From an uncultured Oscillospiraceae bacterium (lineage in GTDB: Bacteria > Bacillota_A > Clostridia > Oscillospirales > Oscillospiraceae), in NCBI GenBank assembly GCA_900754605.1, contig CAAEDK010000249.1:1-25149 (forward strand): DNA of 25,149 nucleotides, in the 5' to 3' direction. The notes under the pieces were generated by a model, which was not told the DNA's origin, searched no databases, and saw only the letters and a program-made list of their open reading frames with translations. Made by a program: the position numbers and the translations under genes. Positions 2,514-25,030 of the stretch are shown here, piece by piece. How positions within the stretch are numbered: position 1 is the stretch's first letter; every line of letters starts with the position of its first letter.

Positions 2514-3683
2514 ATGAAAAAGTTATTTACACTGCTGCTTTCGTTGGCGATGCTCGTGTCACTTGCTGTTCCTGCTTTTGCTACAGAACTAGAGGGGGCT
2601 TATACTCAAGAGGAAATCAATGCTATCAACGAGGTCAATATTGCAAAGTATGCTAAAAGTTTTGTTGATGCGGTCAGTGATGATCCAGACCTTGAATCAG
2701 GGGATGTTCTCACTATCTATAGTGAGAATGACAAAATCTCCGGATATTGTATAGACATTGTTAAAAACAGTTTGCCAAATGGCTATGTGGTTGTTAAGTT
2801 TTCGAATAATGAACCTGTTGTATCGGAATTTTCGCTGGGAGCTGGCGTTCAAAATCCGTATGAGGTGATCATGGAGAGGGATAATATTGGAACGGAAGAT
2901 GCGATTTTTTATAGTATTGGTTCCAATGATTATCAAGTTCTTGATTTGAAGCATGAAGTAATGGCTTCCAGTGATACTACAGAGCTTGTCTCCGAAAAAG
3001 AATTTATGACATATAAAGAGGATGCGAAGGAGATAAAACAGGCTGAATTACAAACGATTACTGATTCAGATGACGGACTTAATTATTCGGATTTAGATGG
3101 ATGGTCAGTTGTATCGGACAACTACGAAGGAACCGTGAAAAATGGTATGGAGCATACAATTACTGGGGCAGACGATATAGACTTGTGGTACTGTGGGGAT
3201 CATGTAGAAAATAATAATAGGACGTATGCATGCTCGGTCGTTGCACTCTGCAATTTGGCAAAATACTATCGTGAAAATGGTTATGATAAGATAAGCAGGT
3301 CGTTTACTACGTTGTACGATACTATGTGGGATTATGCTGGGACGAATGACGAAGGAACTACGAGTAATGGTAGAGAGGCTCCAGCAGCTCAGCGATATTT
3401 GAATGAGCTAGGGTATAAATGTACTTATAGCAGCTATTTATTTGATAATTATGGAGACTTTACAAAGGATTTAGATAAAAACAAGCCTTGCATTTTTTCC
3501 TATGGAGCTAAATTTGGTAATAAAAAGGGTGGACATGCTGTTTTTGCTGTAGGTTACGTGGAAACGACTGAATACCAGTATCTGCAAATTGCTGATGGAT
3601 GGAATGACTATCTAAGATATATTAACTTTAACGGGTATGACTATACTAGAACGGATGGTTGGTCATTTAGTGTTTCAAAATGA
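2514..3683 (+). CDS. Secreted papain-like cysteine peptidase (C39-like)
   Basis: The start at 2514 is set by AGGAGG and by the signal peptide it opens: MKKLFTLLLSLAMLVSLA followed by VPAFA, with a likely cut after Ala23. The 389-residue product has an N-terminal pro-region (about 25-215) with the phrase NGYVVVKFS seen in secreted clostridial C39/C10-type proteins. The catalytic domain (about 220-389) has Cys240 in YACSVVALCNLAKYY, His341 in GGHAVFAVGY and an Asp/Asn in IADGWN near 361-364, which together form a plausible papain-type triad. It probably acts on extracellular peptides or protein substrates. The coding sequence is clearly more AT-rich than the genes on both sides, which suggests separate acquisition. 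The stop overlaps the next gene. Confidence 0.82.
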   Translation: MKKLFTLLLSLAMLVSLAVPAFATELEGAYTQEEINAINEVNIAKYAKSFVDAVSDDPDLESGDVLTIYSENDKISGYCIDIVKNSLPNGYVVVKFSNNEPVVSEFSLGAGVQNPYEVIMERDNIGTEDAIFYSIGSNDYQVLDLKHEVMASSDTTELVSEKEFMTYKEDAKEIKQAELQTITDSDDGLNYSDLDGWSVVSDNYEGTVKNGMEHTITGADDIDLWYCGDHVENNNRTYACSVVALCNLAKYYRENGYDKISRSFTTLYDTMWDYAGTNDEGTTSNGREAPAAQRYLNELGYKCTYSSYLFDNYGDFTKDLDKNKPCIFSYGAKFGNKKGGHAVFAVGYVETTEYQYLQIADGWNDYLRYINFNGYDYTRTDGWSFSVSK

Positions 3684-4174
3684 TGATTACAGTAAAGAAG
3701 CTTTTCCTGTGTGGTGGAGTTTTTCTTATTGTAGTTATAATTCTTATGATGATAATGACCAAAGGCCAACCGTCAGGATGGTTGAGACTAAATGAAGTTG
3801 AGGCGTACGAAAACATACTGGATAGCAAAATTTCTGAGATTACATTACGGAAAACTGTAGATTCAGCAAACTGGGTTGTTTTCTCGGACGACGATTTGAT
3901 TAAAATATGGATAGGTTGCCTGAAAGACATGGAAGTTAGACGGGCAAAAAACTTCGCCCCATATCGTTATGAAGAGAATGGTGGAGGTGGTTCCGTAGTT
4001 GAAATAGAAACGGAAACAGAAAAATATAGTTTAGTATTCCGTAATATGTCTGGCACTACTCAACTCGAAATTGGTGGTATTCTGTATGATATTCGTGAAC
4101 CAGAAAATATTCCATTTGAAGAGACATACGATATGGCCGTTGAACGGCATGGGGTAAGGACTCCATGGGATTGA
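3680..4174 (+). CDS. Membrane-anchored protein coupled to the peptidase, function unknown
   Basis: The first ATG overlaps the peptidase stop by four bases (ATGA); a second ATG follows immediately. The 164-residue product has one N-terminal membrane segment (about residues 6-26: LFLCGGVFLIVVIILMM) and then an extracytoplasmic domain of about 135 residues. That domain looks beta-rich, with a run of glycines (NGGGGSVVEIETETEKYSLVF) and a NMSGTTQLEIGGILYDI segment. I do not recognise the family. Translational coupling and the shared AT-rich composition suggest that it works with the peptidase, for example as an immunity, inhibitor or anchoring protein; this is inference. Confidence 0.75.
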   Translation: MMITVKKLFLCGGVFLIVVIILMMIMTKGQPSGWLRLNEVEAYENILDSKISEITLRKTVDSANWVVFSDDDLIKIWIGCLKDMEVRRAKNFAPYRYEENGGGGSVVEIETETEKYSLVFRNMSGTTQLEIGGILYDIREPENIPFEETYDMAVERHGVRTPWD

Positions 4175-4283
4175 TTAGTAAGGTACAATATACAGTATAT
4201 TTAGAGGGATTGGAGGGAGAGACGGCTGGGAGCCGAGGAAAATAAAGTGGCCGACAGTTCCGCCAATCTCCCGCGAGAGCGCG

Positions 4284-4391
4284 CAAAAGCACTTTCATAC
4301 TGCCAGCCCCAACGGGGCGGCGGTGTGAAAGTGCTTTTGTTCCTTTCTCCCCGGAGAAAGGAACAAAGAGGGGTTGCCCCCTTGCGGGGGC
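4284..4391. repeat. Three consecutive hairpins, candidate oriT or regulatory structure
   Basis: First hairpin: 14-bp perfect arms at 4284-4297 (CAAAAGCACTTTCA) and 4326-4339, enclosing an inner GCCCC-aac-GGGGC stem (4306-4318). Second: 14-bp perfect arms at 4337-4350 (TTGTTCCTTTCTCC) and 4353-4366, sharing TTG with the first so that the two compete at the edge. Third: GCCCCC/GGGGGC at 4376-4381 and 4386-4391. No gene covers this DNA. Dense inverted repeats beside a mobile-element gene block are typical of transfer origins, but no nic site can be asserted from sequence alone. Confidence 0.5.
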
Positions 4392-4475
4392 TATGGCAAG
4401 ATGGGACCTGATCCATCCAATACCCTATCCCGGAAAACGAACGCGTCCAGAAATTTAAGGCCAAGTTTGCTTTAT

Positions 4476-4513
4476 AAAGGATAACCGCCACCTTATGGCA
4501 GCGGCTATCCTTT
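4476..4513 (-). terminator. 17-bp stem-loop closing the large minus-strand gene block
   Basis: On the minus strand, AAAGGATAGCCGCTGCC pairs with its complement (several G-U pairs) around an ATAA loop, giving about 17 base pairs. It lies 170 bases past the stop of the last minus-strand gene. T-rich sequence follows on the plus strand (TTTCAATCTTTT), so it may work in both directions. Confidence 0.6.
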
Positions 4514-8372: not shown

Positions 8373-8915
8373 TTAAAAACCTCCTGGGTATTCGTCCGGC
8401 CCAGCGCCAGGTACAGGGCCTTCATAAGCCCCATAACCATCAGCCGGGGGGAATTGCCCCTGCTGGTTTGCCGGAGGATAACCGCCATAGGCTGGGCATC
8501 CACCATAGCTGCCATCCTGTGCCGGATATCCGCCGTAGTCCCCGCCGGAGGCGGGGTATCCCGTCTGGCTGTTCTGGCCATTCTGGCTGTTCTGGTTTGG
8601 CCGGCTGTCTCCGAAGTAGACATTGTCGGCAACCACCTCTGTGGCAAAGCGCTTATTGCCGTCTTTGTCCTCCCATGGACGGATCTGGAGCCGCCCGTCA
8701 ACTGCGATCACGCGCCCCTTTTTGAAGTAGTTGGCTACAAATTCAGCCGTAGAGCGCCACGCCACAATGTCAATAAAATCCGTTTCTTTCTGATCTCCCT
8801 TTTTATAGTCGCGGTCCACCGCAATGCGGAAGGAGCAGACGGAGAGATTGCTGGCTGTGCTTCGCAGCTCGGGATCTGCAACCAAGCGGCCCATAAGTGT
8901 GACTCTGTTTAACAT
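8373..8915 (-). CDS. ssb: Single-stranded DNA-binding protein
   Basis: The start at 8915 (MLNRVTLMGRLVADPELR) is set by GGAGG eight bases upstream; the ATG 15 bases earlier overlaps that site. Residues 1-102 form a standard OB-fold SSB domain (FRIAVDRDYKKGDQKETDFIDIVAWRSTAEF, GRLQIRPWEDKDGNKR, VVADNVYFG). The linker (103-165) is Gly/Tyr/Pro/Gln-rich with GGYP-type repeats. The tail ends DEYPGGF rather than the usual acidic D-D-D-I-P-F, so interaction with host SSB partners may be altered. It binds ssDNA during replication or conjugative transfer, in line with helicase and clamp genes in the same block. Confidence 0.95.
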   Translation of the reverse strand: MLNRVTLMGRLVADPELRSTASNLSVCSFRIAVDRDYKKGDQKETDFIDIVAWRSTAEFVANYFKKGRVIAVDGRLQIRPWEDKDGNKRFATEVVADNVYFGDSRPNQNSQNGQNSQTGYPASGGDYGGYPAQDGSYGGCPAYGGYPPANQQGQFPPADGYGAYEGPVPGAGPDEYPGGF

Positions 8916-8979
8916 ATCCGATACCTCCAAAAAATCATATTGGGGTTTTGCCTGTGCGACATCGAAAATACCGATCGGC

Positions 8980-9556
8980 TTACCAGCCGGTGTCTCCCTG
9001 ATTTGCGAGGCTGCGCAGCATAGTACGTACCTGCATCAGCGCAAATCCAAGCAAATTAAGGCCCCTCCAGTTTCCTGGGTCTTGAATGCCGGACTGGTAT
9101 TTTGACATGCCGATCCCCCATATCCTGTCATAGGGATTGGCCTCCACCAAAATGCGGTCACCAGTCTGTAAAAGAAAGGACCTCAAAGGGGGATTCTGCA
9201 AAAATTTTTGAAAATTTCCGCACAGTACGATCTGTTCACGGACCTGGCGCCAGCTCTCCTCCTGAAAGCCTGATACCATGCGTCCCAAGGCTTTGCAATC
9301 CCCCGGGAGTGCAGGCGCTCAGGATTCTGGCGTGAGTGCGGTAATCCCCAAAATACGCGGCCTTCTGAGCCATCATGTACTGCTCCATAGATTGGTACAA
9401 GATCCCATCTGCTTCAAAAATGCAGGGATACCATTGACTCAGGCAGCTTTCGGTTGCGCTCCCATCAGAAGGGAGCTGATGTCCATAAAAGAAGAGAAAA
9501 TCCACGGTTTCTCCGCCCTGATGCATCTGGCGGAGCGAATCTGCGGTGTAAAACAT
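8980..9556 (-). pseudogene. NADAR (YbiA-like) protein interrupted by one frameshift
   Basis: Two overlapping frames make one protein. The first (from ATG 9556, AGGAGG eight bases upstream) carries FLFFYGH, SQWYPCIFEADGILYQSMEQYMMAQKAAYFGD and ILSACTPGGLQSLG. The second continues GRMVSGFQEESWRQVREQIV, GNFQKFLQNPPLRSFLLQTGDRILVEANPYDRIWGIG and ends at 8980. Together they give about 190 residues with the NADAR glutamate (SMEQY), tryptophan (ESWRQ) and aspartate (NPYDRIWG). The break is at a GGG run (plus-strand CCC at 9284-9286): removing one G gives AGC CTT GGA CGC ATG and restores the frame. NADAR enzymes hydrolyse ADP-ribosyl or related ribosyl adducts. A recent mutation, a sequencing error or recoding are all possible. 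Confidence 0.85.
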
Positions 9557-9595: not shown

Positions 9596-9659
9596 ATATA
9601 CCGTTTTTCTCCGAGCGCGATATATGCCCCCCGCACTTTCGTCCGCTCAAAGTCCGTAC

Positions 9660-9932
9660 TCAGCCCTGGACAGGCTGCTGCGGCCCGTCCAAAATGGATG
9701 TCTGCGGAACGGCGGGCTCCTCCTTCATCTGATCCAGATGCTTTATAATGGCCTCATGGTCAAACGACCGAATGATGCCCGCATCTTTGCAGAAACAAAG
9801 GAAATGACGGATCATCCGATATGCCGCACGGTATTCGCTCTCGCTCACCGGCTGATACTGGCGTAAGGCATCCAGACAGTCGAGCAAATCACAGCATGTG
9901 TTTTCAAAGCGGCAATCACCCATATTCGACAT
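9660..9932 (-). CDS. Small Cys-containing hypothetical protein
   Basis: The 90-residue product starts at ATG 9932 with GAGGAG nine bases upstream; its first 17 bases overlap the end of the sigma-like gene, so the two are coupled. It reads MSNMGDCRFENTCCDLLDCL, with five cysteines in the first half, then a helical region (SEYRAAYRMIRHFLCFCKDAG) and a Pro-rich tail. A zinc site or helical-bundle regulator is conceivable. I recognise no family. Confidence 0.7.
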   Translation of the reverse strand: MSNMGDCRFENTCCDLLDCLDALRQYQPVSESEYRAAYRMIRHFLCFCKDAGIIRSFDHEAIIKHLDQMKEEPAVPQTSILDGPQQPVQG

Positions 9933-10635: not shown

Positions 10636-12021
10636 TCAGTTCGCTTTCAGAAGATAAAGTTCTTTCAGAGGAACGTAGGAGAACACTCCGGATACTCCGT
10701 CCTCTGAAAAAGCCTTCTTGTTGAAGGCTTCCAGATCCTCCATACAGGCGTCTACTTTCTGTCTCCCAATGTCATCCTGAGCTTCCGCTCTCATCGCAGA
10801 CAGCTTTTCGTACAGCATGAGGTACTCTTCCCTCAGCTTTCCGATGCGGCGGGCTGGCGCTGCGCCGGAGTCATCTTCAAACTCCTGGTAGCTCTCCTGC
10901 GCTGCGGCAAGGATACCATCCAACCGGTTTTTGAACGGATCGCTGCACATCTGCACCAGGGCAGATTGGATGATGGCACGCTCCTCCGGCGCGGTCCAGA
11001 GATAGTGGCGAAGGATGATCAGATCAGCCGGGGCCACGGTATCCCGGCCCTCCAGCCACGCTTTCGCTTGCGCGACAGGAGCATAGTTGAAATATTTTCG
11101 ATCTGAGATATGAATCCCCTTTTCACGCAAAGCGCAGAGCACATCGTCCATCAGCTCATTTATGCTGTCCAAGATATGGACCTGGCGTACATCATCCTGC
11201 ATGGCCTCCAATTCTTCCAGGGTGATGGGAGCCGCAGGGGCCTGCGCCAGATGGGGGGCCGCCTGTTTCTGCTTTAGTATCTTCAGGCGTGCGGCCCGGT
11301 CTTCCACATATTCCGTGACCACCTTCAGTTCAAACCGGTCATAGAGCGGCTTGAGTATCTTCTCCTCGGGATTGGTGAAATTTGGTATTTCGTTGGAGGC
11401 TGAAAAGAAGGAAATGGTCGGGATGTGGATGGTTTTGCCCTCGTTGGTATAACGCCGTTCATTCAGGGCGGTCAAAAGAGCATTGAGGATGCCATCGGAC
11501 GCCTTAAAAATTTCATCGAGAAAAACGATGTGACTGTCCGGGAGCTTGCCCTTCGTAATGATGCGCGGCTCCCCGCCATGCAGTTCGGAGAGCGCTTTCC
11601 GGTACCGTTCCAGCTCTGTGGTCGCCAGTTCCAGCTGCTGTCCGAACGACGCATCGCCGCGGCGGTAGTTCAGCACCAGGGTCTCCAAATCGCGGCGCAT
11701 CTCCTGGTAAAGAGCATCCTCCTCCAGAATCTCCTCCGGCACTCCGCCGGGGATCAAGCTGGAGAGGTCCAGACGCCCAAACAGAGCCTCCTCATCGGCC
11801 TGTTTGGACATCAGGCGCTCAAACTGCCTAGCCCCGGTGAGCCCATCGCGGAACAAGTTGATGACAGCGCTTTTGGCTTGTCCGGTGTCGCCCAGGACAA
11901 AGACATTTTTTCGTGTCAGCAGCGCAATGGCAATCACCTCGATCAGCTCATCGCGTTCTGCCACCTGCGTCTGGACCTCCCGCATGCGGGCACACATTTT
12001 GTCTCTCAGTGCTTGATCCAT
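10636..12021 (-). CDS. MoxR-family AAA+ ATPase, RavA-like
   Basis: The 461-residue protein starts at ATG 12021 with GGAGG upstream. Motifs: Walker A GDTGQAKS (44-51), Walker B HIVFLDEIF (164-172), sensor 1 SASNE (207-211), a likely arginine finger in LYDRFELKV (Arg229), then a C-terminal helical region with QAKAWLEGRDTVAPADLIIL typical of RavA. The Walker A to B spacing is about 50 residues longer than in RavA, because of a helical insert (about 80-150, LYQEMRRDLETLVLNYRRGD...). RavA-like ATPases form hexamers that work with a vWA protein, here the gene at 4911-6506. Its clients are unknown; replication, phage or defence complexes are all conceivable. Confidence 0.9.
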   Translation of the reverse strand: MDQALRDKMCARMREVQTQVAERDELIEVIAIALLTRKNVFVLGDTGQAKSAVINLFRDGLTGARQFERLMSKQADEEALFGRLDLSSLIPGGVPEEILEEDALYQEMRRDLETLVLNYRRGDASFGQQLELATTELERYRKALSELHGGEPRIITKGKLPDSHIVFLDEIFKASDGILNALLTALNERRYTNEGKTIHIPTISFFSASNEIPNFTNPEEKILKPLYDRFELKVVTEYVEDRAARLKILKQKQAAPHLAQAPAAPITLEELEAMQDDVRQVHILDSINELMDDVLCALREKGIHISDRKYFNYAPVAQAKAWLEGRDTVAPADLIILRHYLWTAPEERAIIQSALVQMCSDPFKNRLDGILAAAQESYQEFEDDSGAAPARRIGKLREEYLMLYEKLSAMRAEAQDDIGRQKVDACMEDLEAFNKKAFSEDGVSGVFSYVPLKELYLLKAN

Positions 12022-17805: not shown

Positions 17806-18930
17806 TCACGCAGCCTTTCCACCTGCGGCTTGCTTTGGCGCACGCATCGGGGACTGAAGGTAGCGTGTCTCGCCTGGACGGATCGCAAGCAGGCCGTTTT
17901 GATCAAATTCCAATGTGATCCGTCCGCGCAGCTGCTTGAGATACCGCATTAGCTGTTTGAAATCGTAATAAAAGGGATAGGGCGACGGGCTCAGGATCAG
18001 GGCCTTGACGGGCACGCTGGCCCTCCCGTCGGAGGTTTCCGCACTGACAACCATTTCGTGCTCTCCGAACATGATCTCTCCGCGGCCGGAGGAATCCTTA
18101 TCAGCAGACGCCAGGGATGTAACCGTGTCTACTGCGGCGTATAGTTCAGCAGCTTCTATCGAGGCGCTGTATGCGCCCTGAATACGGTCCAGAAGCCCAT
18201 CTGTGTCCGGGTAGCTGCCGTCAATCAGGTGCGTACAGAACATCGTTGTGCCATTCCAGAAGGCCAGGCCCTCGCGGGTCAGGCCCATTTGGTAAACATC
18301 GCTGTCCAGGGAGATGGCTGCCAAAATGGACAGGGAGCGGGCTGGGACTAAAATGCAGGTTTCCGAGGCCGCGACACAATTTTTATCCCCGGCTGCCTCC
18401 GCAATGCAAAAGCCGTTGCTGCTCGTGGCCTTCAGGCCGTATGGCCCTACTTTCAAACGCACAGTCTTAAGAATATTTTGTTGGTCGCCGGCCGCGGCCG
18501 CGAACAAGGTCTGGCGGGCCAGGGAGCATATCCCGCTGACCGGGATGGTGTCTTCCAGAAAGGGGACCTCCGGAAGCGGGTACTTAGCGGCGTCTAAGAT
18601 GTTGAGCCTGTACTCCGCATAGCCGGAGCCGATGTGGATGATACCAGGGCCTACCGTAGAAAAGGAAACCTGATCTCCCGGAAGCCGCTTCAGAATGTCC
18701 GGCAGCAGATCTGCCGGAATGACAGCGCTTCCGCTCTCCTCCACCGCAGCGGGCATGGAGGCACGGATGGAAACCTCCTGATTGGTTGCCGTCATGGTCA
18801 GCATAGCCAGCCGTGCGTCTGCTTCCATGTGGATACCTTTCAGTTCCGGGATGGTTGTGATTTTCGGCACTGCTTTGGATGCTTGGGCGGCCAGGACCAG
18901 CGCCGAATCACGGTTTGCATGTACGCGCAT
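17806..18930 (-). CDS. dnaN: DNA polymerase III beta subunit-like sliding clamp
   Basis: This 374-residue protein has the usual bacterial beta-clamp length and motifs: IPELKGIHMEADARLAMLTM and TATNQEVSI in domain 1, VIPADLLPDILKRLPGDQV, then SSNGFCIAEA, LVPARSLSIL and HLIDGSYPD in domain 2, and a C-terminus RYLQSPMRAP resembling the usual Y-L-V-M-P-M-R end. It is divergent, as expected for an element-borne clamp. It would encircle DNA and tether a polymerase, probably the host's, since none is encoded here. ATG 18930 has AAGGAAGG upstream and lies 17 bases after the helicase stop, so the two are cotranscribed. Confidence 0.88.
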   Translation of the reverse strand: MRVHANRDSALVLAAQASKAVPKITTIPELKGIHMEADARLAMLTMTATNQEVSIRASMPAAVEESGSAVIPADLLPDILKRLPGDQVSFSTVGPGIIHIGSGYAEYRLNILDAAKYPLPEVPFLEDTIPVSGICSLARQTLFAAAAGDQQNILKTVRLKVGPYGLKATSSNGFCIAEAAGDKNCVAASETCILVPARSLSILAAISLDSDVYQMGLTREGLAFWNGTTMFCTHLIDGSYPDTDGLLDRIQGAYSASIEAAELYAAVDTVTSLASADKDSSGRGEIMFGEHEMVVSAETSDGRASVPVKALILSPSPYPFYYDFKQLMRYLKQLRGRITLEFDQNGLLAIRPGETRYLQSPMRAPKQAAGGKAA

Positions 18931-18947: not shown

Positions 18948-21900
18948 CTATGCAATTTGGAATAGGAGAAGCTGATCTTCATCGACTTCCCCTTTTTTCC
19001 GCTTGTGCTCAGCTTTCGCCGTCTCAAAAAAGACGGGGGAATCCTGCGGAAGAACTGCGGCCTGTGGAACCGTCCTCTCCTCCGTACCAAAGGTGAACTC
19101 CAATATGGATGGAGAACTGCGCCCCAACACAGCGCTGTCCGTTTTCCGCACCTCGTCTGAAAAAATGGACCATGCCGCCGTCTGAGGCTTCAGCATAGCC
19201 ATCCGCTTGAACGTAGCCGCAAGGTCTTCCACGCTGTCTTTGATGCCCATCATCAGCTCACGGGCCATCAGAGTCGTCATATCCTCGCATTCCGACATGG
19301 CGGACAGGCCCTCTTCGCTGAAGGAGCCCTCGATCATGCCGGCAGCGGCCAGCTTGGAGGCCATCAGCTTGATTGCCTTATGCTGCATTGTGCCTGCGTG
19401 ATAGAGCATGTAGACCTCTACCCGGGGTGCAGACTGGTTGATCCGCCAGCTGCGCAGGCTGGCTTGACGCAGCGTAAAAAGCTTGTAGCCCGTATCATAG
19501 AAAATCAGCGTTGTGAAGGCATTCAGGTCCAAGCCGGTTTCCACAAGCGAGGGATTTCCGATCAGCACCTGAAGGCCATGGTCAAGGCGATCCTGCACCC
19601 AGTCCTCCCGGGCCTCCGGTTTCACTTTTGCCTCCAGGATCGTGGCGTTCCAGCCGCGCTCTGTCACAAGCTTCAGGAGCCGCTTTGGAGTATCCAGACG
19701 GGTCCAGTTTGTATAAATGAGCACCTTCCCGCCGGCCGCGATTTTTTCCTCCGCGATTTTCAGCACCATTTGATCCTTCGGCATGATGGCGCCAGGCGGC
19801 ATCGTGTCCTTGGGTTTGACAATATCGTAGCCATCGAAAGGGTGCTTGATTGCGGGCTGGCCATAGGGTTGGTCTGGATGAGCGGTCAGAAGATTCATAT
19901 ATGAGGACAGGATTTTTTTACATGCCTTCTTATCGCTTTTCATCACATGCTTCAGCGCATCTTCAAGCCGCTTGTATTCCTTCCGCACTTCCGGCGCCAT
20001 CTCAATCGGCACTGGGATCTCCTCATACTCAGGCAGGACCTTTCCCATGTCTGTCAGATTCAAAAATGCGGTACAGTCCAGCAGAAAGCGTGTATAGACC
20101 AGCGGCGAAACACCCGGCTTCAGACGGCTGCCCTTTTTACTCCGTACAGTACGCCGGTTTGAGTTGTAGGCGCCTTCCCGCTCTTCGTAAATATTCTGTA
20201 TCACACCGTATTCTGTGTCGAATTTTCTGCTGTCCCTATAGGGTTTTCCATCCTGGCACATGCGGCGCGGGGCAATCCGGTAGAGGAGATAGAACAGTCC
20301 GGAGCTATACCCGTTGACAAGGGTGGCGGTCATACCGACCACCTTCTTTGCCGCGCTCAAGAGCTCCTGCATAGCGTCCCCTTGTCCGGAATTGTTGTTA
20401 TACTGGTGCAGTTCATCTGCGATCAGTGCAAAAATTTTTCCTTTGTAGGCGCGCTTGATGTAGCTGCTGAGCGGGAACGTCCGATAGGCTCCCCGGATTG
20501 GAAACGGTATGTCAGGACAGTTTTCCAGCTTGGTTATCCGATCCCGTATGGCTTCGTTTGGAATATCCTCCCGGTATTCGTTCAGGAGCGGGCGGAACAC
20601 AAATCCATAGCTCCCGAGCTTTGCCCACTGTGTCTGTTGATTCCACAGCGTTGGATTGAGAGCAGTCCACAGGGAACTTCCGCAGATCTTGCACTTGTGG
20701 TTTTCCCGATTCTCACTTCTGAAAAAACGGGGGCCAGCCGGCACACAGTAGGCGACCCCATCTTTGCTGATATTCTCCATGATGACCGCCCCGCAATCCG
20801 GGCAGCAGAACACGTGCCGAAGGGGACTGAATCCGACCGCGGGCATCTCCTCGTTGGCGCGAGGCCGGGCAATATTCAGCCCCTCACGATTCCATTTTCG
20901 GAAAATCACAGCGGGCGCCCGCATATAGCCGTCCCTGGCCTTTTCCTTAGAGATGATGGCAAAGCAGTTCCGGCTCCCCTGCTCGTACAGCTTGTAAAGA
21001 AGATCAAACTCACTGATACTCCTAACAACTGCGGCAAAGGTGTTTGGGATGCTTTCTTCGATTTCCCGCACCCACTTTTTTGTGACGTGGGCAGGGCAGA
21101 GGACAATGCTGAAGGTTTTTGAGTGGCCCGCGCTTATCTGATGGGACTGTAACCCGGCGGCCGCAACTGCAACGCTTCCGATCTTGGTCTTTCCGGTCCC
21201 GCATCCGGCTACGATCAGGGCGACCTTACTTTGGCCGAGCTTACGTTTGATCGATTCAGCGACTGCGAGCTGGGCGTCATAAAGGGAATATCCGGCGTGA
21301 GCCCGGATATACTCATTGATGTCTAATACTTCTTCAGAGAGCGGTTCAGTGGCCGGATCGAACAGGGGAACAAACAGCTTCTTGATCCGCTCTGCCACGG
21401 CAACACCAAAGGTGTTCAGATAGTCTGTTACGGAGTGAACTCCATCCAGCAGAGAGGGCCCCGGGGCTGCGCCCGGAATTTTGATCTTGCCCTGCTTCAG
21501 GCCGTCCTCCATGACCTTGACCAGATTTTGATCCTTCGCTTCACAGCAGAGCTTCCATGCCTCCAACTCCTGATACAAAGAGCGCACCCTGAGAGGGCGG
21601 AGGATTCTGCGCCGCTTTAGTTCCGCGAGAACATAGTCCTGATATTCCGGGATCATGGGCACATAGGATTTCTGGTCAATGGCCTGGAACAATTCATCCT
21701 CATTTCCAGGGTGGCAGAAAATATAGCAGATGTGCGCTGGAATGTCCTGCTGAGGCACATTGTCATCAAACAGGTCGTCTTTCTGCGCGTGCTTGCTGCT
21801 TTTCTCGTCCTGGCTTTTTGAACTTTCCTGGATCTCATCTTCCGCAATCAATGTGGCTTCCGCGTACAATCCCTCATGGCTCACCTCCCGGTGGTATTGC

Positions 21901-22136
21901 TTGGAAAGCGATTTCAGCGTGAGGAGGCTGCCGTCAGCATCCTCGATTTCGATGGTAGCTCCGCCATAGATGGCGTCCGTAAGCCCCCGCACGACTTCGG
22001 CATAGCCGCCGAATCGCAGTCCGGCTAATGTCGGGGAAGGATCTTCGCTCCAGATCACGGCATCTGCGTATGCGTTCAGCCGTATCCCTTTTTTGAGATC
22101 CTGATAGGTAACTTTCATGAGCCTTTTGGCTTCCAT
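18948..22136 (-). CDS. Large SF2 (SNF2/DEAH-like) helicase with internal zinc ribbon
   Basis: The 1062-residue protein shows motif I AGCGTGKTK (310-318), motif Ia LCPAHVTKKWVREIE (346-360), a zinc ribbon with CxxC pairs at 445/448 and 482/485, motif II DELH (574-577), motif III GMTATL (601-606), and a C-terminal RecA lobe with KVLIYTNW, GNPSLVETGLDLN and motif VI RQASLRSWRINQ (890-901). This is the order of SNF2-like translocases of phages and plasmids. The N-terminal 280 residues are a separate acidic region. I use ATG 22136; AAAGGAG lies 13 bases upstream, so ATG 22118 (MKVTYQ) is an alternative. It leads the long block and is preceded by a structured RNA and terminator. Likely role: DNA unwinding or remodelling in replication or transfer. 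Confidence 0.9.
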   Translation of the reverse strand: MEAKRLMKVTYQDLKKGIRLNAYADAVIWSEDPSPTLAGLRFGGYAEVVRGLTDAIYGGATIEIEDADGSLLTLKSLSKQYHREVSHEGLYAEATLIAEDEIQESSKSQDEKSSKHAQKDDLFDDNVPQQDIPAHICYIFCHPGNEDELFQAIDQKSYVPMIPEYQDYVLAELKRRRILRPLRVRSLYQELEAWKLCCEAKDQNLVKVMEDGLKQGKIKIPGAAPGPSLLDGVHSVTDYLNTFGVAVAERIKKLFVPLFDPATEPLSEEVLDINEYIRAHAGYSLYDAQLAVAESIKRKLGQSKVALIVAGCGTGKTKIGSVAVAAAGLQSHQISAGHSKTFSIVLCPAHVTKKWVREIEESIPNTFAAVVRSISEFDLLYKLYEQGSRNCFAIISKEKARDGYMRAPAVIFRKWNREGLNIARPRANEEMPAVGFSPLRHVFCCPDCGAVIMENISKDGVAYCVPAGPRFFRSENRENHKCKICGSSLWTALNPTLWNQQTQWAKLGSYGFVFRPLLNEYREDIPNEAIRDRITKLENCPDIPFPIRGAYRTFPLSSYIKRAYKGKIFALIADELHQYNNNSGQGDAMQELLSAAKKVVGMTATLVNGYSSGLFYLLYRIAPRRMCQDGKPYRDSRKFDTEYGVIQNIYEEREGAYNSNRRTVRSKKGSRLKPGVSPLVYTRFLLDCTAFLNLTDMGKVLPEYEEIPVPIEMAPEVRKEYKRLEDALKHVMKSDKKACKKILSSYMNLLTAHPDQPYGQPAIKHPFDGYDIVKPKDTMPPGAIMPKDQMVLKIAEEKIAAGGKVLIYTNWTRLDTPKRLLKLVTERGWNATILEAKVKPEAREDWVQDRLDHGLQVLIGNPSLVETGLDLNAFTTLIFYDTGYKLFTLRQASLRSWRINQSAPRVEVYMLYHAGTMQHKAIKLMASKLAAAGMIEGSFSEEGLSAMSECEDMTTLMARELMMGIKDSVEDLAATFKRMAMLKPQTAAWSIFSDEVRKTDSAVLGRSSPSILEFTFGTEERTVPQAAVLPQDSPVFFETAKAEHKRKKGEVDEDQLLLFQIA

Positions 22137-24195: not shown

Positions 24196-24798
24196 TTAGG
24201 CGCCTTCTTTAGGGCCCTGTCTCGGTGCCAATCTATCGTATTGGATGATAGTGTCTCCGGTCTGTAGATTGAGTTTTTCTTTTTTCAGCAAGGTATAACG
24301 CGGCTGACCCTCGGCATAGTCCTTTTCCGATTTTGGGAAAAAGGTACGGCATACCTGCGTGTCCTCGCCCATACGCCGTGCCAGAAATAAGTATACCGGT
24401 GTACCCTCGAAACTGTTTTGCAGCAGGTAGTCCGCCTGAATCGCTGAAAAAGCATGTACCTTGGAATTATAGCGGAAAACAATCTCGTTGCTATCCAGAA
24501 ATTCTTCCAGATGGGCCAGCGGCTTCAGGCGCGGCTCCATCTGTTTGAAAAAAACACTCCGCTGGGCATGGGAAAGTGTAAGATTTCCAGATAGGATTTC
24601 CTGCATGATATTTGCTCTTTTCCCGGTTAGAAAACGGACATTATCTGTCAGCTTATGCAGGCCGGCCAGGTGATGAAAATCTGATGGATCAAATGAGATT
24701 GTAAAATCTATGGTCCGTCCCTTCCTGCCCGCAACAATATGATATTGGTAGGTAAGCAGTTGATGGAAACCAACCGCACATGTTTGAAGTAAATCCAT
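24196..24798 (-). CDS. PBECR4-type nuclease-fold protein
   Basis: ATG 24798 has AAAGAGGA upstream, 22 bases after a terminator. In the 200-residue product, the N-terminal half contains ISFDPSDFHHLAGLHKLTD, the hallmark of the PBECR4 class (phage-Barnase-EndoU-ColicinE5/D-RelE-like nuclease fold), and TGKRANIMQEILSGNLTLS. Later segments (EFLDSNEIVFRYNS, GTPVYLFLARRMGEDTQVCRTFFPKSEKDYAEGQPRYTLLKKEKL) complete the fold. BECR proteins usually cleave RNA and often act as toxins or as factors delivered with element DNA. No separate antitoxin gene is adjacent; the upstream structured RNA could control it. The family call rests on motif memory. Confidence 0.72.
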   Translation of the reverse strand: MDLLQTCAVGFHQLLTYQYHIVAGRKGRTIDFTISFDPSDFHHLAGLHKLTDNVRFLTGKRANIMQEILSGNLTLSHAQRSVFFKQMEPRLKPLAHLEEFLDSNEIVFRYNSKVHAFSAIQADYLLQNSFEGTPVYLFLARRMGEDTQVCRTFFPKSEKDYAEGQPRYTLLKKEKLNLQTGDTIIQYDRLAPRQGPKEGA

Positions 24799-24820
24799 CC
24801 TGAATCCTCTTTCATGTAGC

Positions 24821-24995
24821 AGAAAACCCCGCCGTAAGGCGGGGCTTTCTGGTGCATTTTCTTTCGGCTACTCAAAGCCTACGCCGGTTTGAGGTTTCGC
24901 TGCACAACCCCTCCTGAAAGCTCCATAAGACGATGCCGACCGGCGCACCCTCCTACTTCAACGCTTGGACAGACACACGCCGTTGCCTGTCTTAC
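24821..24995 (-). ncRNA. Candidate 175-nt structured RNA with its own promoter and terminator
   Basis: On the minus strand a consensus promoter is followed, from about 24995, by GC-rich non-coding sequence that ends in a terminator at 24823-24844. Possible helices: GACAG/CTGTC near the 5' end; GGGGTT with AACCTC around a loop containing GTGCA; that loop can pair with TGCAC downstream (a pseudoknot); CTCAAA with TTTGAG; and a long-range 7-bp CGCCGGT with ACCGGCG. I saw no open frame of note. I do not recognise the class; it does not have the 6S-like closing stem. Confidence 0.62.
24823..24844 (-). terminator. Intrinsic terminator between the structured RNA and the PBECR4 gene
   Basis: CCCCGCC (24827-24833) and GGCGGGG (24838-24844) form a perfect 7-bp stem around GTAA. 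On the minus strand TTTTCT follows directly. The PBECR4 start codon lies 24 bases further on, so that gene depends on read-through unless a promoter is hidden in between. Confidence 0.8.
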
Positions 24996-25001
24996 ATTAT
25001 T

Positions 25002-25030
25002 ATAATACGCAGTATTTCAGAATATGTCAA
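25002..25030 (-). promoter_or_regulatory. Near-consensus sigma-70 promoter of the structured RNA
   Basis: On the minus strand TTGACA (plus 25025-25030), a 17-base spacer and TATTAT (plus 25002-25007). It is among the best promoters in the window and fires toward the structured RNA and the PBECR4 gene. Confidence 0.75.

Follow-up and report, generated by a model that had tools for sequence, protein, structure and literature searches.

The minus strand of a 25,149-nucleotide (nt) contig from an uncultured Oscillospiraceae bacterium (CAAEDK010000249.1, assembly GCA_900754605.1; the whole stretch is called the window here) carries at 24820-25030 a complete small-RNA gene, made up of a promoter, a leader hairpin, a full-length RNA of the drum family and a terminator hairpin. 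The next gene on this strand encodes a protein of the PBECR4 family, a predicted BECR-type ribonuclease. The partnership of drum and PBECR4 is well supported by sequence comparison, and we consider it probable, at roughly two chances in three, that drum serves this nuclease as an antitoxin-like RNA and forms with it a module of two parts. In its layout such a module would resemble type III toxin-antitoxin loci and the AbiF/RCd22 pair, with a different protein and a different RNA. Direct support comes from the RNA gene itself, its promoter and terminator, a covarying fold, an association with PBECR4 that is seen from both sides in relatives that diverged deeply, and an RNA class that tracks the nuclease tree.

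The RNA gene opens with a sigma-70 type promoter at 25030-25002, in which a -35 box TTGACA (25030-25025) and a -10 box TATTAT (25007-25002) are separated by a spacer of 17 nt and match the consensus at 11 of 12 positions. Taken alone, this site is poor evidence because a scan of the region gave 2 promoter-like sites with 2.0 expected. A survey of 61 drum loci, a subset of all, found similar sites of at least 9/12 in the 110 nt upstream of 53 (19% in shuffled sequences) and sites of at least 10/12 upstream of 44 (3% in shuffles); 41 of the 53 sites end 28-37 nt ahead of the drum RNA. Judging from the -10 box, transcription probably starts near 24995, and the predicted transcript, running to 24820, is 176 nt long with a GC content of 57% and a predicted fold of -73 kcal/mol (z -3.58; no equally stable sequence among 200 shuffles). 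Both this promoter and a GC-rich structured RNA of about 175 nt had been proposed in a first-pass annotation of the window, and both hold. The leader (24967..24995) lies outside the Rfam model of drum and forms an 8-bp hairpin, in which GACAGGCA (24991-24984) pairs with TGTCTGTC (24975-24968). At the other end, a terminator at 24821..24850 consists of a 13-bp GC-rich hairpin followed by TTTTCT. The terminator that the annotation had placed ahead of the nuclease start is therefore present, but the gap between its hairpin (24850-24821) and the ATG of the PBECR4 gene (24798) is 22 nt and not 24. A program-made terminator scan listed this hairpin on the plus strand only (1 found, 1.2 expected), and a custom script with different limits detected it on the minus strand. 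Terminators were found within 160 nt upstream at 52 of 56 drum-type PBECR4 places, versus 32 of 208 other genes of the same loci.

The drum core occupies 24849..24966 and matches Rfam family RF02958 over the full model (1-112) with 89.5 bits, the gathering cut-off being 43. Drum is the sole Rfam family above cut-off in the window and is found there once; matches to the rnk leader, BSnc120, isrJ, RsmY and sroH all fell below their own cut-offs, and a chance RNA-like sequence is ruled out by the Rfam match together with the covariation described below. The Rfam search that the first-pass annotation had suggested has thus led to a known class, one that is nevertheless tied to PBECR4. Rfam lists the type of drum as 'Gene; sRNA', i.e., small RNA, and the family was reportedly discovered by Weinberg et al. 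in 2017. It has been named as an example of Rfam content (PMC7779021) and used as an example of covariation (PMC7657543), and its kink-turn (k-turn) folds on magnesium, as followed by Förster resonance energy transfer, and binds L7Ae protein in vitro (PMC8191799). The passages on drum in these three papers name no function or gene partner, and the word PBECR4 is absent from the literature searched. The window RNA agrees with the described family in being full length, in scoring twice the gathering value and in carrying the reported k-turn pairs; to this description we add its link to PBECR4, the flanking promoter and terminator, and a shorter form on plasmids.

Structurally, the window RNA is made up of four numbered helices, a k-turn, a short hairpin and a pseudoknot, all on the minus strand. 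P1 is formed by 24966-24963 and 24921-24918 and is followed by the k-turn, whose bulge strand GUUGAA (24962-24957) faces UGGAG (24925-24921), and by P2 (arms 24956-24945 and 24936-24925). At the diagnostic positions of Table 1 in PMC8191799, this k-turn (24963-24956 with 24925-24921) has C:G, A:G and G:U. The P2 loop contains GCCGGU (24944-24939), the 5' strand of pseudoknot 1, and the 3' strand ACCGGC (24888-24883) comes after the AACC of a short hairpin, GGUU/AACC (24909-24906 and 24896-24893), which is conserved without covariation. Within the loop of that hairpin lies the 5' strand of P3, GUGCA (24901..24905), and the 3' strand UGCAC (24852..24856) is preceded by GAAAGAAAA. The P4 hairpin (24866..24879) is closed by GGCU (24879-24876) pairing with AGCC (24869-24866).

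Covariation among drum homologues, a check that the annotation had named, is strong. Across 38 sequences, 31 of 35 pairs show changes on both sides, a count matched by 3 of 500 shuffles; the covariation score is 0.660 (0.232 shuffled, at most 0.139 slid) and 85.8% of cells are paired (61.1% shuffled, at most 41.3% slid). The pseudoknot suspected from the letters pairs perfectly in the window with all six pairs kept, and in relatives all six change on both sides with 87.4% of cells paired, which is a fair test because pseudoknot 1 is absent from the model used for aligning. P3 behaves similarly, with both-sided change at 5/5 pairs and 78.7% pairing.

The neighbouring gene (24196..24798, minus strand) encodes 200 amino acids (aa) that match PBECR4 (PF18813) with 141.2 bits over residues 4-189, against a cut-off of 27; no other Pfam family was found at E<=0.001. 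H43 is conserved in all 99 relatives that have a residue there, and position 152 is Ser or Thr in 96% of relatives. In an AlphaFold2 model with a predicted local distance difference test score of 90.7, residue 152 lies in a strand (148-155) and H43 in a short helix (40-44) that is not the first. Both the assignment as a BECR-type ribonuclease and its activity are predictions. The Pfam name presumably derives from the work of Iyer et al. in 2017. PBECR domains have been described as nucleases of phages and mobile elements, solo versions included, with a conserved His and a Ser/Thr (PMC5512222); unlike the protein studied here, they are mainly parts of proteins that are likely injected into the host, and the passages concerned mention no RNA partner. 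The best match of PBECR4 to a sequence of known structure reached only E 0.018, the Pfam scan did not match the window protein to ToxN (PF13958), and none of 4 PBECR4 proteins matched a defence protein listed in PADLOC. Searches for viral relatives returned no match for the PBECR4 protein against phages (tblastn), no confirmed case from an alignment query against viral contigs, and two unnamed matches at E<=0.001 from Foldseek with a viral library.

Seen from the RNA, the association with PBECR4 holds in genome samples of 398 (phylum), 392 (one order) and 189 (another order). Drum occurs at E<=0.001 in 3, 20 and 24 of these, respectively, and 2/3, 17/20 and 20/24 of the drum genomes also carry PBECR4, as counted by hand; Fisher p values for this co-occurrence, which ignore relatedness, are 2e-4, 2e-13 and 5e-13. 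The samples yield 55 distinct drum loci, and a PBECR4 profile made from relatives of the window protein has a downstream same-strand match at 46 of them. With Rfam's own model, 48 loci are above the cut-off; the seven left out of this number are L024, L025, L029 and L049-L052, and two of these, L025 and L029, appear on inspection by eye to be false matches. A broader profile, for which a gene counts as intact if at least 80% of the profile is covered, finds an intact PBECR4 gene directly downstream of 34 of the 48 copies, a broken one at 8 and none at 6. The broken genes are cut short or frameshifted (L013, L016, L018, L027, L030, L034, L043 and L044), and L015, among the six copies with no match, by eye retains the first residues of the PBECR4 gene. 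That 14/48 copies persist without an intact nuclease fits an antidote. Two drum patterns run over viral contigs hit 0 and 2 contigs, and the drum model gave no match at E<=0.1 in either of these 2.

The same association is seen from the protein. PF18813 is carried by 55/392 and 38/189 genomes of the two orders and by 4/398 of the phylum sample, and 125 PBECR4 places were compared, leaving out G749:C20:1717-1947, a piece of a frameshifted gene already counted. A drum-like RNA lies ahead of 56, a second RNA described below ahead of 31, and neither ahead of 38. The RNA at these 87 places is on the same strand and 51-184 nt ahead of the domain match. The tie between structured RNA and nuclease, which the annotation had deduced from position, is therefore borne out in both directions, and loss of the RNA is not the rule among PBECR4 relatives, since it or the second RNA is present at 87 of 125. 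The drum model gave 28 matches at E<=1 in 291 kb of sequence from 83 sources, every one of them directly ahead of PBECR4. These counts are not fully independent, because many of the 27, 12 and 38 sequences used to make the models R1, R2 and R3, respectively, come from loci that were then searched themselves. Some of the 87 are weak: L109 (R2, E 0.074), which the tree groups with class 4 and which is possibly class 4; L107, L146, L147 and L167 (R1, E 0.0014 to 0.085), which afterwards went into R3; and L144, L128, L165, L150 and L166, found by R3 only (E 5e-9 to 0.002). One R1 match outside the position upstream of PBECR4 (L079, E 0.43) was not counted.

PBECR4 is also present in 21 plasmid records. 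Four of these genes were examined, three from Enterococcus (two nearly identical) and one from Streptococcus suis, which are 31-36% identical to that of the window, and a diverged drum was found in 4/4 (E 3.5e-8 to 7.4e-6). By eye, these plasmid RNAs lack P4 and have a terminator. On the Enterococcus faecalis plasmid pKUB3006-2 (L171), an AbiH family gene (3305-4492, plus strand) directly follows PBECR4. Other structured RNAs near PBECR4 genes are a DUF3800-XI RNA (L071, 2378-2425, minus) and a DUF3800-VIII RNA (L111, 1361-1423, plus).

A tree was made from 100 PBECR4 proteins, namely the 125 minus 30 that are shorter than 130 aa or contain a stop, plus the window protein and the four plasmid ones; labels of classes 4 and 5, which are introduced below, were given by eye. 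A fully supported branch divides 63 rows (52 drum, 8 class 5, 3 none) from 37 rows (27 second RNA, 5 class 4, 5 none). On the tree, the RNA label changes 11 times versus 42.9 in shuffles, and none of 200 shuffles was as low. Because the RNA class tracks the nuclease tree and drum alone is found in 18 of 33 clusters at 40% identity, the pairing is judged to be old, and not the recent spread of a single element.

PBECR4 genes of the second clade, without drum, are preceded by a conserved RNA, some 130 nt long, made up of three hairpins with A-rich linkers. Its loops and tails form pseudoknots in a ring-like arrangement: the loop of hairpin 1 pairs with the last tail and that of the last hairpin with the first, and the middle hairpin pairs its loop with its own tail. 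Loci with this RNA include L061-L065, L069, L071, L072, L076, L079, L080, L082, L085 and others (e.g., L061, 2167-2293, minus). Across 12 sequences, 96% of cells are paired, 19/35 pairs show both-sided change and the covariation score is 0.364 versus 0.171 shuffled; the measure for further pair types, one out of five, was equalled by 57/500 shuffles. Rfam gave no match over this RNA, either at E<=0.1 in 17 loci or at E<=1 in a single locus. Its pattern was found in 4 viral contigs, all of which match its model and 3 of which have PBECR4 downstream. The copy in the fourth contig (L174, IMGVR_UViG_3300025117_000251, 9627-9716, minus; 62 bits, truncated by the end of the slice) is followed instead by a phage-like structural frame that has no PBECR4 match, and by comparison with the pseudo-ToxI of phage PhiTE (PMC3475682) it is possible that this RNA is an antitoxin mimic. 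Further, uncounted R2 copies lie at L132 (2314-2444, plus), L115 (2837-2971, plus) and L125 (2491-2634, minus); two of the three are not ahead of a detected PBECR4 gene, and one is a second copy further upstream.

Additional RNA types, classes 3, 4 and 5, recognized by eye and partial alignment, stand ahead of 24 other PBECR4 places, with loci in three groups: L131, L136 and L143; L121, L126, L127, L133, L135, L151, L108, L112 and L155; and L114-L116, L154, L156-L162 and L168. Rfam gave no match at these positions at E<=0.05. A single loop-tail pseudoknot with an A-rich linker common to all PBECR4 RNAs is not supported by tail counts. Tails of at least 4 occur in 2/56 drum, 23/29 second and 6/35 other RNAs (8/180 control genes, 10/600 shuffles), and tails of at least 5 in 1/56, 0/29 and 3/35 (1/180 and 3/600). 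Evenly balanced, in our judgement, is the broader proposal that PBECR4 nucleases are a large RNA-partnered class of toxins using several unrelated antitoxin RNAs, with drum in one deep clade, the ring-pseudoknotted RNA in the other and classes 3 to 5 elsewhere.

The closest functional parallels are two kinds of RNA-restrained toxin. In Clostridioides difficile, the RNA associated with AbiF_Cd, RCd22, has been shown experimentally to neutralise the toxin by direct binding (PMC12373285). Like drum, it is an RNA with an Rfam-type motif upstream of a toxin gene, but its partner is an Abi_2/AbiD/F family protein and it carries two abiF motifs itself; the window has a match to neither element, its protein giving PBECR4 only at E<=0.001 and its RNA drum only above cut-off. 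Type III loci (ToxIN, CptIN, TenpIN and AbiQ) share the order of RNA, terminator and endoribonuclease as well as a pseudoknotted RNA, and there the terminator keeps the RNA in excess over the toxin messenger RNA (PMC12373285). Their RNA is a tandem array, unlike drum, a single unit with one match in the window; the second RNA has two repeat-like units. We regard drum-PBECR4 as probably working like a type III system, yet do not class it there, since it has neither a ToxN-family protein nor a tandem-array RNA.

By analogy with these systems, the strong promoter would yield abundant drum RNA, and the terminator would let a small share of transcription continue into the nuclease gene. Folded into P1, the k-turn, P2, pseudoknot 1 and the loop-tail helix P3, drum would bind PBECR4 and hold the nuclease off. 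A drop in RNA supply, e.g., through shut-off of transcription by a phage or loss of the mobile element, would then release the nuclease to cut RNA. On this proposal PBECR4 would be toxic, drum would neutralise it by direct binding, and the module may have a role in defence or element maintenance.

Other readings of the locus differ in what the RNA would do. Drum could act purely in cis, as an attenuating or autoregulatory leader at which PBECR4 or a k-turn binding protein sets read-through into the nuclease gene, with no action on the protein in trans. Its place upstream of the gene with a terminator between, and the k-turn that folds and binds L7Ae in vitro (PMC8191799), would suit this, but the RNA has its own promoter and terminator and the nuclease gene is broken or absent at 14/48 copies; since these same features favour a small RNA, the evidence leans that way and we consider a pure leader unlikely. 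More doubtful still is a functional RNA-protein complex whose nuclease would be activated or guided by drum, in the way that RAGATH-18 derived RNAs act on IS607 TnpBs. RAGATH-18 comes from the same discovery set as drum (PMC8191799) and turned out to yield guide RNAs (PMC11061315), and a class of RNA that tracks the nuclease tree would be expected of such a complex too. However, the 3' end of the RNA is a terminator, copies exist without a nuclease, and a guide-like variable segment was not noticed, no dedicated test for one having been made.

The reading to which we give least credence is that drum is a small RNA with its own targets on mobile elements and PBECR4 merely a frequent neighbour. 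The Rfam type and the 6/48 copies without a PBECR4 match downstream would agree with it, but one of these six (L015) keeps what by eye is the start of the PBECR4 gene, and the association runs both ways, with 18 PBECR4 clusters at 40% identity having drum alone. An antitoxin-like partner of PBECR4 is the role that we favour for drum.

Elsewhere, the window encodes a group II intron maturase domain (29-1198, plus) and, on the minus strand, domains of SSB (8373-8930), a MoxR ATPase (10636-12021), DNA polymerase III beta (17806-18930) and a helicase (18948-22136), because of which the surroundings look like a mobile element. A type II toxin-antitoxin pair, RelB/YafQ (1310-1856, plus), and a gene with a NADAR domain (9236-9556, minus) are also present.

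If the proposed partnership is true, it would give drum a function and the predicted nuclease family PBECR4 a partner. The short list of proteins restrained by RNA would also gain one more nuclease family, together with at least two classes of RNA. With copies on plasmids and a window that resembles a mobile element, the module could serve defence or maintenance there.
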